DNA from: Alicyclobacillaceae bacterium I2511
GTDB taxonomy: Bacteria > Bacillota > Bacilli > Alicyclobacillales > Alicyclobacillaceae
NCBI GenBank assembly: GCA_003584005.1
Contig: QXHL01000012.1
Coordinates: forward strand, 1-64,000
Length of the DNA stretch: 64,000 nt
Reading direction: 5' to 3'
Part shown: in pieces, positions 1,591-64,000 of the stretch
How the letters are laid out: the number at the start of each line of letters is the position of its first letter
Position numbering within the stretch: the first letter of the stretch is position 1
Program-made: the position numbers and the translations under genes
Notes under the pieces: model-generated
Told to the model about the DNA's origin: nothing
Databases searched by the model: none
What the model saw: the letters and a program-made list of their open reading frames with translations, nothing else

Positions 1591-2970
1591 GTGTTCGACG
1601 ACTTTGTCGCACAGCATGAGCGGGAAATGGTCGACACCTTGCAGACCTTACTGCAAATTCCCAGCGTGCTGGGACCTGCATTGCCACATCAGCCTTTTGG
1701 AACAGAAATTGACAGAGCTCTGCAAAGTGTCCTTCAGCTTGCAGAGCAATATGAGCTGGTGACTTGTAACGTAGATGGATACGCTGGCCATGTGGAGTAT
1801 GGTGAGGGTGCTGAATATGTGGGAGTACTTTGCCACTTAGACGTAGTACCAGCGGGTGAAGGGTGGACAACCCCAGCATTTTCTGCGGCAATTCGGGAGG
1901 GACGAATATACGGCAGGGGTGCGATTGATGATAAAGGTCCATCATTGAGCGCACTTTGGGGCTTGATAGCAATAAAAGCGTTAGGATTGCAACCGCGTCG
2001 TAAAATTCGCATAATTTTTGGGCTGGATGAAGAAAGCGAATGGCGCTGTGTCAAACAGTATTTTCAAAAGGAAAGTTTCCCCTTGGGGGGATTTACTCCG
2101 GATGCAGATTTTCCCCTGGTTTTTGCCGAAAAGGGATTGGTAACACTAAAGCTTGTGGTGTCTGCAGACGTATTGTCCATGAGCCCTCGCGTGGTACGCT
2201 TCGAGGGGGGGGAACGAGTCAATATGGTCCCTGATTTAGCAGTAGCGGTTGTCGAATGTCATTCAGAAACGGCTGCCCTGGAATGGCAACAGGCGATGAC
2301 TAGAGAAGCTAAATCTAAGCAAGTGGATGTGGATGTTATGACATCCGGGTCTCAAATTGAGTTAAATGTGAGAGGCATTTCTGCCCATGGAAGTACACCA
2401 CACCAGGGGCGCAATGCGATTTGTCTGCTCGCAGGACTTTTGTCTTCTCAACCCATTGCGAACGTCTCCTTATGGCGATTTTTAGCACAACAAGATACGT
2501 CCGGGAAATCATTGGGGATTGAAATAAGTGATGAGGTCATGGGCCCCTTGACAGTGAACTTAGGCATGTCCAAACTGACAGGAGAACAATATACATGTTG
2601 GTTTGACGTTCGTTATCCGGTAAATGTCCGGCCTGATGACCTAATTACTCGCTGTGTGGCGTATGTATCAGATAAGTGGAATATTGACATGGTTCATCAA
2701 GTGGAGCCTTTGTACATGCCTTTGGCACATCCAGTGGCACAGGTATTGCAGGACGTTTATCGACAAGAGACCGGGGATGACGCGGGGCCGATAGCCATCG
2801 GAGGTGCAACCTATGCTCGAGTCATTCCGAATGCAGTGGCTTTTGGACCCGTGTTTCCAGGTCAAAGAGACGTAGCACACCAGCCAGACGAGTCATGGGA
2901 TCTGCAAGACTACTTGCGTTGCGTAAAAATATATGCGCGAGCCATGTTAGAGCTGGCAAATCATTTGTAG
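1591..2970 (+). CDS. pepV: M20 family dipeptidase PepV
   Basis: A cytoplasmic zinc metallopeptidase of the M20 family, expected to cleave dipeptides and some N-terminal amino acids. The metal and catalytic motifs are visible: HLDVVP near residue 82, DDKGP near 114 and DEESEW near 147. HGSTPHQGRNA further on belongs to the inserted dimerisation/lid domain. The C-terminal half carries IGGATYARV, typical of PepV. Length (459 aa) matches the family. GTG at 1591 has a good ribosome site (GGAAGGAG, 1575-1582); TTG at 1588 is also possible. It follows ccpA by about 95 bases and is followed by mecA after 33 bases. Confidence 0.9.
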   Translation: MFDDFVAQHEREMVDTLQTLLQIPSVLGPALPHQPFGTEIDRALQSVLQLAEQYELVTCNVDGYAGHVEYGEGAEYVGVLCHLDVVPAGEGWTTPAFSAAIREGRIYGRGAIDDKGPSLSALWGLIAIKALGLQPRRKIRIIFGLDEESEWRCVKQYFQKESFPLGGFTPDADFPLVFAEKGLVTLKLVVSADVLSMSPRVVRFEGGERVNMVPDLAVAVVECHSETAALEWQQAMTREAKSKQVDVDVMTSGSQIELNVRGISAHGSTPHQGRNAICLLAGLLSSQPIANVSLWRFLAQQDTSGKSLGIEISDEVMGPLTVNLGMSKLTGEQYTCWFDVRYPVNVRPDDLITRCVAYVSDKWNIDMVHQVEPLYMPLAHPVAQVLQDVYRQETGDDAGPIAIGGATYARVIPNAVAFGPVFPGQRDVAHQPDESWDLQDYLRCVKIYARAMLELANHL

Positions 2971-3003
2971 GGACTACGTCTGTAGTTAGGGGAGGGAAGG
3001 GGC

Positions 3004-3645
3004 ATGCGTGTCGAGCGGATCGCCCGAAATAAGGTTCGGATCTTCATCAGCTATGAAGATCTAGAAAAAAGGGGTATAGACCGTAATGAATTATGGAAAA
3101 ACGGTCGTAAAGTACAAGAATTGTTTTGGGATATGATGGAAACTGCATACGAACAAACGGGGTTTGAAATAGTCGGTCCAGTTTCTATTGAAGCTTTTAC
3201 CATGCCCACGGAAGGCGTGGTTGTGATTGTTACACGGGTTCCCGCCCTACCCATGCATAACCGTTCAGAGAATGCGGATGAGGAAGAGGACTTTGATGAA
3301 GAAGAGGACTACGGTCTGGCAGATGATGGTGATTCCGGGAATTCACTTTCATTGTTTGCACTGAGTCCTGTATTTCGATTTGATGACATGGAAGACGCCA
3401 TTCGGGCAGCGCATGCTATGATAAGTAACCCGCCAGTCTCTACAGTATACAAGTACCAAGGCGTCTACTATGTAACTTTGGAGGAAAGCGAGCTAACTCG
3501 AGATGAATTTGAGTCTGCTGCGGCTGCACTGTTGGAATATGGTGAAAAAACGTCTATGACGGACGCCTTTCTATTTGAATATGCAGAATTGCTATTAGAT
3601 GGGAATGGGTTGGCACAACTGGCTAAAATTTTCCCATTAAGTTAG
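3004..3645 (+). CDS. mecA: adaptor protein MecA
   Basis: An adaptor that brings substrates such as ComK or misfolded proteins to the ClpC-ClpP protease. The N-terminal domain (about residues 1-80, beginning MRVERIARNKVRIFISYEDL) is typical. An acidic linker rich in D and E (about residues 90-115) separates it from the C-terminal ClpC-binding domain, where FALSPVFRFDDMEDAI and the later YLLEYGE-like region fit the family. The 213 aa length is normal. A GGGGAGGGAAGGGGC stretch just before the ATG supplies the ribosome site. Confidence 0.93.
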   Translation: MRVERIARNKVRIFISYEDLEKRGIDRNELWKNGRKVQELFWDMMETAYEQTGFEIVGPVSIEAFTMPTEGVVVIVTRVPALPMHNRSENADEEEDFDEEEDYGLADDGDSGNSLSLFALSPVFRFDDMEDAIRAAHAMISNPPVSTVYKYQGVYYVTLEESELTRDEFESAAAALLEYGEKTSMTDAFLFEYAELLLDGNGLAQLAKIFPLS

Positions 3646-61952: not shown

Positions 61953-61985
61953 TTCGCTAAGTTCATCGGTGTTACTGGAATAAAA

Positions 61986-62022
61986 TAAAAAGTCTAGAAC
62001 CAGTGGGTCCTAGACTTTTTAT
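61986..62022. terminator. bidirectional terminator
   Basis: AAAAAGTCTAG and CTAGACTTTTT are complementary around AACCAGTGGGTC, with T-rich 3' flank on both strands, ending the YjcZ-like gene and the KamA-family gene. Confidence 0.8.
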
Positions 62023-62110
62023 TTTATTAATGCTTTCACTGCCCATCTCGTTCGTTGGGGTGGGCTGCAAGCGTGCGGTTGTCCGCCTCTTTCAAATCCA
62101 TGGGGATCAC

Positions 62111-63232
62111 TCAATATTGTCCAGTGGCTGCGACCTCCTCTCGAGCAGACTCCTCTGCAGCAATCAAGTCATCGAACCACGCAGCCCCGTCTGGCAGGTG
62201 AAAGACCATGAAACGACCCATGTCCTCTGGCCTTCTGGCTTGATGATATTTCAAGTAAATCTTCCCCTGCGATACAGACAAAATCTCAATTTTTCCCGAT
62301 GCGTGACTCATCACGTATTTAACCCGCTTGCCCAAACCAGAGATGCGCGCCTTTGCTTCTTCAATGACCTTGTATGCCCTGTAAAACGGCACCACAAAAT
62401 CGGCATTGCCAGCCACCGGACGGTTTTGAAAGATGTAGTACGGCGTCACCCCCGCGAAAGACAGCTTGTCTAAGAGTTCTGCCAAGATCTCTGGATGGTC
62501 ATTGATCCCTCGCAAGATGGGAGTTTGGTTAACCGTGATGACTCCTGACTCTTGCAGGGCTGCAATGGCTTGGTGAGACTCAAGGGTTAACTCTCTTGGG
62601 TGATTAAAGTGAGCCATGACGTAGATGCGCGCCTCTGGCTGAGAAAAGCTGGACAATACTCGAAGAAGCGCCTCATCTTCATAGATACGCATAGGATTAA
62701 ACGCGAGCAGTTTGGAGCCTAAGCGGATCACTCGTACATGTGGGATATCCCGCAATTTTCTAAGAATGGTCTCCAGACGAGAAGTGGACAACATTAGGGA
62801 GTCGCCGCCTGTGAGCAGGACGTTGTTGATTTCTGGGTGTGCTGCAATATAGTCCAAACCCGATGAAACGTCCAAACGAACCTCACGAACATCATTGCGA
62901 AACAACCGTTTTCGGAAACAAAAGCGACAGTATGCCCCACATACCTCGGAGACCAGCAACAAAGCCGTGGTCTTGTACTTGTGTTGACAACCAGGGGCCG
63001 CGTAATTGGTGTGTTCCGCCGATGCGTCCCAGGCTCCGTATTCCTGCAATTCGCCAGCACTTGGGATGACCAATCTACGAATAGGATCGTGCGGGTTGGC
63101 CCAGTCAATCAGACTCTTGTAGTAGTCATTGAGGCGAAAAACGTAGCGGTCAGTAATCTGCCTTAAATACGCCCGTTCTTTCAAATTCAACTCTTGTATC
63201 TGGTCAATACGGGTGAAATAGGTGGTTTTCAT
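62111..63232 (-). CDS. KamA-family radical SAM protein (lysine 2,3-aminomutase-like)
   Basis: The iron-sulfur motif CGAYCRFC (C98, C102, C105) is in place and followed by FRKRLF. The radical SAM barrel (GGDSLMLS, LGSKLLAFNPMRI, NQTPILRGINDHP) fits the aminomutase family. Unlike canonical lysine 2,3-aminomutase, no PGGGGK PLP-lysine loop is visible; the C-terminus reads MSHASGKIEILSVSQG instead. At 373 aa it is shorter than KamA. Its substrate may therefore not be lysine. AGGGAGGAGG precedes the ATG. It is preceded on the same strand by a c-di-AMP riboswitch. Confidence 0.82.
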   Translation of the reverse strand: MKTTYFTRIDQIQELNLKERAYLRQITDRYVFRLNDYYKSLIDWANPHDPIRRLVIPSAGELQEYGAWDASAEHTNYAAPGCQHKYKTTALLLVSEVCGAYCRFCFRKRLFRNDVREVRLDVSSGLDYIAAHPEINNVLLTGGDSLMLSTSRLETILRKLRDIPHVRVIRLGSKLLAFNPMRIYEDEALLRVLSSFSQPEARIYVMAHFNHPRELTLESHQAIAALQESGVITVNQTPILRGINDHPEILAELLDKLSFAGVTPYYIFQNRPVAGNADFVVPFYRAYKVIEEAKARISGLGKRVKYVMSHASGKIEILSVSQGKIYLKYHQARRPEDMGRFMVFHLPDGAAWFDDLIAAEESAREEVAATGQY

Positions 63233-63391
63233 AGGCCGTCCTCCTCCCTAAAATAGGCGAAGAAGGAAGCGAGAGTAAAGCCATATAAAGGGTTCCCCTG
63301 CACGCAACAGAAAATGTAAGTAATGGGCCGGGGGCAACTCCCGGGGACAGTCCGTGTTCCCATCTATACAACGCCAGGTGAACTTTCCCTT

Positions 63392-63530
63392 TCTACGCTT
63401 GCGAAGTTAGCTGACGGGTTCGGATTGAAAGTTAACCCTACCTGGAAAATCGACGAATTAGCTTCGACTTCTCAGGATTCACCCCAGAAACTTGGTTCCC
63501 CCGCTTCTTTCTCCAAGAATTCAGCGTAGA
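63392..63530 (-). ncRNA. c-di-AMP riboswitch (ydaO-yuaA type)
   Basis: On the minus strand the conserved ydaO elements occur in order: GCGGGGGAACC, GGGGTGAATCC (near 63475), GTAGGGTTAAC (near 63436) and the signature CCCGTCAGCTAACTTCGCAAG (split here as CCCGTCAGC and TAACTTCGCAAG, 63418-63400). P1 is closed by TCTACGCT (63530-63523) with AGCGTAGA (63399-63392). Cyclic di-AMP is expected to bind and alter expression of the gene downstream, which is the KamA-family radical SAM gene. No clear terminator with a U-run follows the aptamer, so control may be by access to the ribosome site or a weak hairpin. Confidence 0.9.
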
Positions 63531-63652
63531 CTGTCCAATATCTACAGTGTAGCGGAGAAATGCGTATTGGGGAAGGGCTGTAACCTATGAAAGTCCTTGG
63601 GGCTGAAATTCACCCTCTTAAGTGGGCTCCCTATTTTAGTCAGCGACTGTCT

Positions 63653-63693: not shown

Positions 63694-63710
63694 ATTGATT
63701 ATAAGGAACG

Positions 63711-64000
63711 GTGATCTTTTTGACACAGGACAGACAGGAAATTCAGCAGGCGTGGGAAGAGTTTGTTCGCGGCGGTGGGGGGGCAGACCATCTAGTGAAC
63801 GGAGTGATTCGTGAGTCTTGGTTGCGGTCTCACCAACTGGGCGTAAATCCCTGGCAATTAGTAGGACCTGAACGGGTGAGTCCTGAGGAGTTACACCACC
63901 TTCGAGAAGTGAAACAAACACTCCTGGATGCGGCATCACCCCACATGGATCACCTCTATGAGTGGGTGAAGGGAACCGGATTTGTGGTTACCCTGTGTGA
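63711..64000 (+). CDS. probable sigma-54-dependent activator, N-terminal part (cut by window end)
   Basis: About 96 codons are visible, running off the right edge. The start (GTG 63711, or TTG 63720) has AAGGAAC upstream. The N-terminal text HLVNGVIRESWLRSHQLGVN matches the pattern of AcoR/PrpR-type activators (R.SW.R....GV.P), which usually continue with a GAF domain, an AAA+ module and a Fis-type helix-turn-helix; none of these can be seen here. It is divergent from the KamA-family gene and could regulate lysine or amino-acid catabolism, an inference from the pairing only. Confidence 0.6.
   Translation, partial: MIFLTQDRQEIQQAWEEFVRGGGGADHLVNGVIRESWLRSHQLGVNPWQLVGPERVSPEELHHLREVKQTLLDAASPHMDHLYEWVKGTGFVVTLC

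Follow-up and report, generated by a model that had tools for sequence, protein, structure and literature searches.

A c-di-AMP riboswitch leads a KamA-family aminomutase gene in Alicyclobacillaceae bacterium I2511 and may control synthesis of a beta-amino acid osmolyte

A ydaO/yuaA-type aptamer and a single KamA-family radical SAM gene form a one-gene unit on the minus strand of the window, that is, the whole 64,000-nt stretch of Alicyclobacillaceae bacterium I2511 DNA that was analysed (Table 1). The link between the two is real, conserved and biologically coherent, and we lean towards the explanation that the c-di-AMP riboswitch governs the production of a beta-amino acid that serves as a compatible solute. 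A c-di-AMP riboswitch on a KamA-family aminomutase gene is known in principle (PMC9337991); the different aminomutase subfamily, its substrate pocket and the recurrent attachment of the switch are new.

Table 1 Features of the riboswitch unit in the window
Feature	Position	Strand	Basis
Putative sigma-70 promoter preceding the aptamer	63698..63726	-	10/12 positions, consensus scan only
c-di-AMP (ydaO/yuaA) riboswitch aptamer	63381..63536	-	RF00379 match
Leader from aptamer to start codon (candidate expression platform)	63233..63380	-	Switching element hypothetical
KamA-family radical SAM gene, 373 aa (P0001)	62111..63232	-	TIGR00238; aligned to PDB 2a5h; residue table
Intrinsic terminator ending the one-gene unit	61970..62050	-	Fold -28.6 kcal/mol, z -5.84

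The identity of the riboswitch is near certain. The RF00379 alignment scored 100.3 bits (E 1.3e-22; gathering score 38), covered the model over its full length (1-134) with zero broken pairs marked, and bore out the ydaO-type aptamer that an earlier note had read from the minus strand; the coordinates given there for aptamer and gene (62111-63530) were correct to within 6 bases. The same aptamer was recovered by a whole-genome RF00379 search. The KamA-family ORF has an ATG start and begins 148 nt past the aptamer on the same strand. A sigma-70 scan of the minus strand found no promoter-like site in this interval, and so none that would make the gene independent of the aptamer, an outcome that the earlier note had named as a refutation; across the region, the consensus scan returned 4 sites against 1.9 expected. 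Just beyond the stop codon, a hairpin with a U-run, equalled in stability by none of 200 shuffles, closes the unit and confirms that the aptamer has a single downstream gene. This terminator is symmetrical and could act on both strands. No match to a second riboswitch was found in the leader beside RF00379. A functional tie between riboswitch and gene is very likely. A divergent gene (63711-63998, plus strand) has only its first 96 aa inside the window; these gave no Pfam match and look like the start of a GAF/sigma-54-type regulator.

Of the 399 genomes sampled from the class, 54, including the window's own, carried orthologues with at least 59% identity, and the closest orthologue (93% identical) belongs to the same genus. 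The earlier note had called for a comparison of related genomes, and the pairing withstood it. In a survey of the 80 best named orthologue loci with an RF00379-type model (R1, spot-checked with Rfam), the aptamer lay directly upstream of the gene in 42 of the 50 Paenibacillaceae orthologues; the window's genus and a single genome of a sister family showed the same arrangement. It was found at none of the 27 loci from Bacillaceae, Thermoactinomycetaceae, Anoxybacillaceae, Caryophanaceae and an Alicyclobacillus relative. Nine further genomes of the window's class were concordant. Among 13 sampled orthologue loci lacking RF00379, the only other riboswitch was one unrelated SAM box. RF00379 was likewise found directly upstream of glutamate 2,3-aminomutase (EAM, TIGR04368) genes at 21 of 30 clostridial loci (L147-L176), a set made up of the highest-scoring loci, so that 70% is not an unbiased frequency; 'clostridial' is our own reading of genomes outside the window's class. 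The lysine 2,3-aminomutase (LAM) loci carried no RF00379 (0/19), and bona fide LAMs occur separately in related genomes without the riboswitch. Across the whole KamA tree, the riboswitch label changed eight times, indicating that the switch was gained or lost repeatedly, and its pairing with clostridial EAM is independent of that with the window subfamily.

Known ydaO switches turn expression off. Leaders from Paenibacillus, and most of the EAM leaders sampled, have an intrinsic terminator within approximately 20-50 nt past the aptamer, which fits this known off-switch. Where relatives carry the terminator, the window leader has a G+C-rich hairpin without a U-run (~63320-63364). Additionally, a pyrimidine-rich tract, CUUCCUUCUUC (~63259-63249), could pair with and mask the Shine-Dalgarno sequence of the KamA-family gene. 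The 93%-identical sister shares this layout of hairpin and CUUCCUUCUUC tract, and the anti-Shine-Dalgarno tract was found again in the sister family. Several candidate elements were set aside. The hairpin does not qualify as a terminator (no U-run, z -0.81); a Shine-Dalgarno-sequestering hairpin, matched in stability by 966 of 2000 shuffles of the window leader, is retained as a candidate rather than a proven expression platform; and pairing of the P1 3' strand with the tract was equalled by 412 of 1000 shuffles. The whole-leader MFE fold was uninformative (z -0.14). Because the hairpin and the tract of the window did no better than shuffles, we infer off-switching by c-di-AMP in I2511 from the known ydaO switches and the terminators of the relatives.

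The encoded protein scored 226.2 bits against TIGR00238, the KamA family (cut-off 199.2), and below the cut-offs for AblA (TIGR03820; 213.7 vs 525.4), EAM (TIGR04368; 224.2 vs 650), the EF-P lysine aminomutase EpmB (TIGR03821; 188.6 vs 369.3), arginine 2,3-aminomutase (196.6 vs 600) and AblA-like-2 (213.7 vs 396). The earlier description 'lysine 2,3-aminomutase-like' therefore stands at the family level; as the name of a lysine enzyme, it agrees with neither the cut-offs nor the pocket. In LAM, Asp293 and Asp330 grip the epsilon-ammonium group of lysine; EAM has Lys and Asn instead. When the protein was aligned to the sole solved relative found, LAM (PDB 2a5h, 180-bit match), Arg271 fell on Asp293 and Val307 in the Asp330 column. 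A joint alignment of 118 members of the window subfamily, 19 LAM paralogues, 30 EAM and E. coli EpmB extended this substitution to the whole subfamily. The Asp293 column held Arg in 117/117 subfamily rows (the 118th is truncated), Asp in 19/19 LAM, Lys in 30/30 EAM and Asp in EpmB; the Asp330 column held Ser/Val/Ala, Asp, Asn and Glu, respectively. The CxxxCxxC radical SAM motif, Arg107 and the PLP lysine Lys314 were all conserved in the subfamily.

With both aspartates replaced, a cationic lysine side chain would not be expected and an acidic one would, so the 'lysine' reading of the enzyme is probably wrong. The pocket suggests a substrate with an acidic, or at least non-cationic, side chain, leaning mainly on the single residue in the Asp293 column. 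A glutamate-type substrate is plausible, and a beta-glutamate-type product would fit better than a lysine-derived one. The EAM-like pocket (basic at Asp293, no Asp at 330) argues that the protein may work like EAM, not that it belongs to EAM. In a tree built by a quick method and with long branches, the window subfamily formed a single clade separate from EAM and LAM, and the basic residue and any EAM-like chemistry may hence be convergent. The Arg is also retained in distant relatives from other classes and from rhizobial plasmids (41%). The rhizobial-plasmid relative lies between two ATP-grasp-type ligase genes (L186, 6899-7990; L187, 6908-7987), perhaps for a small molecule containing a beta-amino acid.

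No conserved operon partner was found around the orthologues, whose flanking genes were mostly unrelated, as expected of a stand-alone unit. In several Paenibacillus genomes, ectA-B-C-D immediately precede the riboswitch and kamA. In P. silviterrae, a BCCT transporter gene begins 40 nt past kamA with OpuA genes beyond, and in P. phyllosphaerae, ectD and BCCT genes lie upstream of kamA. PhyH/EctD proteins (3) and BCCT transporters (2) were present among 122 flanking proteins. Most of the orthologues are solitary genes with no osmolyte-related neighbour.

The other eight targets of the nine RF00379 copies in the I2511 genome are mostly classical: kdpA, an OpuA-type ATPase and several NlpC/P60, LysM or 3D-domain wall proteins. 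Cell-wall proteins, named by reading their sequences, account for 4 of the 9 targets. On contig C98 (L006), an aptamer (1501-1699) lies 314 nt ahead of two overlapping genes (2013-2708 and 2708-3199) for a HAD hexitol-phosphatase-like protein and a mannitol-1-phosphate 5-dehydrogenase. This layout could be a second biosynthetic ydaO target, making mannitol, a known osmolyte. The genome's top-scoring copy (104.8 bits; L001, 831-1436, minus strand) leads a protein of ~178 aa that gave no NCBIfam match. The OpuA-type ATPase behind the copy on contig C160 (L008, 1711-2401) is apparently split into two overlapping frames, which may reflect a frameshift or an assembly error. The genome has two diadenylate cyclase genes, and no ectB over the cut-off was found in it.

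In the proposed mechanism, sufficient turgor and potassium would keep c-di-AMP high, the aptamer occupied and expression off. Under hyperosmotic stress, c-di-AMP would drop, the leader would switch and the radical SAM/PLP aminomutase would be made. The enzyme would then act on an alpha-amino acid, moving its amino group to C3; the simplest substrate would be L-glutamate, giving beta-glutamate. To our knowledge, few studies have looked for beta-glutamate in Bacillota. An osmolyte role for the product is likely. The earlier note's proposal that c-di-AMP signalling reaches a beta-amino-acid osmolyte gains comparative support from the Paenibacillaceae pairings, the clostridial EAM loci and the ectABCD/BCCT neighbours; the product is a predicted one, and the link itself has a precedent (PMC9337991). 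More tentatively, and with somewhat less than even confidence, we suggest that the Arg-at-Asp293 subfamily arose independently in Bacilli as a second glutamate-type 2,3-aminomutase, that c-di-AMP riboswitches became attached separately to this subfamily and to clostridial EAM, and that beta-glutamate synthesis is a recurrent osmotic output of c-di-AMP in Bacillota. If the preferred explanation is true, de novo beta-amino acid synthesis joins ion and osmolyte transport as an output of c-di-AMP, one that spans many soil and thermophilic Bacilli and also Clostridia, and a radical SAM subfamily gains a regulated context and a candidate substrate.

The same observations bear on four other explanations. 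The enzyme might be a lysine 2,3-aminomutase after all, its unit yielding beta-lysine, acetylated or not, as in the Dehalobacter case. TIGR00238 membership, the match to 2a5h and the published precedent of a lysine 2,3-aminomutase gene behind a c-di-AMP riboswitch (PMC9337991) speak for this, but the AblA score is far from its cut-off, both aspartates are absent throughout the subfamily, authentic LAMs of related genomes are separate and lack the riboswitch, and no AblB acetyltransferase gene adjoins the gene in the window; we regard beta-lysine as unlikely. A building-block role, in which the beta-amino acid is destined for a modified peptide, the cell wall or ligation, appears to us just as unlikely. 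It would match the cell-wall branch of ydaO targets, four of the nine in this genome, and the ligase genes beside the Arg-retaining rhizobial relatives. However, the window gene has no adjoining ligase or cell-wall gene, and no such neighbour recurs among the riboswitch-bearing relatives.

Slightly less improbable is a catabolic route, in which an alpha-amino acid is converted to a beta-amino acid and then transaminated, and c-di-AMP reflects nutrient status or the glutamate/potassium balance rather than solute synthesis. In eight alkaliphilic Bacillaceae (L057, L082, L091, L093, L095, L096, L105 and L112), the orthologue faces genes for a HemL-like class III aminotransferase and an RpiR regulator, joined in six of the eight by a fused TRAP permease, and this locus is a possible catabolic module for beta-amino acids. 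Those eight orthologues, however, lack the riboswitch, whereas riboswitch-bearing members lack such partners and some adjoin ectoine or betaine genes. That riboswitch and gene adjoin by chance, with no functional link, is very improbable: the window leader shows neither an obvious terminator nor a proven Shine-Dalgarno switch, as chance would allow, but the two elements are close together on one strand with no promoter-like site between them, and relatives keep the pairing in most Paenibacillaceae surveyed, with terminators in most of those sampled. Control of the synthesis of a beta-amino acid as a compatible solute remains the explanation we prefer.

Among known systems, the canonical ydaO/yuaA targets are kdp/ktr, opuA and NlpC/P60 hydrolase genes. 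They share the aptamer class with the window gene, and such genes carry it in the same genome too; they are transport and wall genes, whereas the window gene encodes a biosynthetic enzyme. Clostridial EAM resembles the window protein in being a radical SAM/PLP enzyme of the KamA family with a basic residue at LAM Asp293, in the shared PYYIF..(K/R)PV.G loop and, at 21 of the 30 loci, in the RF00379 aptamer upstream of its gene. It differs in belonging to a separate clade, in the window protein's shorter length and its score of 224 bits against a cut-off of 650, and in having Lys and Asn where the window subfamily has Arg and Ser/Val/Ala. Beta-glutamate is an established, classical archaeal osmolyte that also occurs in a few bacteria, e.g., Nocardiopsis, and NMR evidence from methanogens argues against an aminomutase as its source there (PMC1224877). 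Genes for EAM (eam, beta-glutamate) are among the targets of the Na+ riboswitch (PMC9337991). In the open full-text literature, with subscription papers outside the scope of the search, no paper on c-di-AMP and an aminomutase was found besides that 2022 report on Dehalobacter sp. CF. There, the gene for lysine 2,3-aminomutase (ablA) is preceded by a tandem Na+/c-di-AMP riboswitch, which was assayed by in vitro transcription and read as osmolyte control (PMC9337991). As in the window, a c-di-AMP aptamer there leads a KamA-family aminomutase gene and an osmolyte reading was reached; unlike in the window, the c-di-AMP aptamer follows a Na+ aptamer and AblA was the name given to the enzyme, whereas the window leader gave no other riboswitch match and neither the cut-off nor the pocket identifies the window enzyme as AblA.
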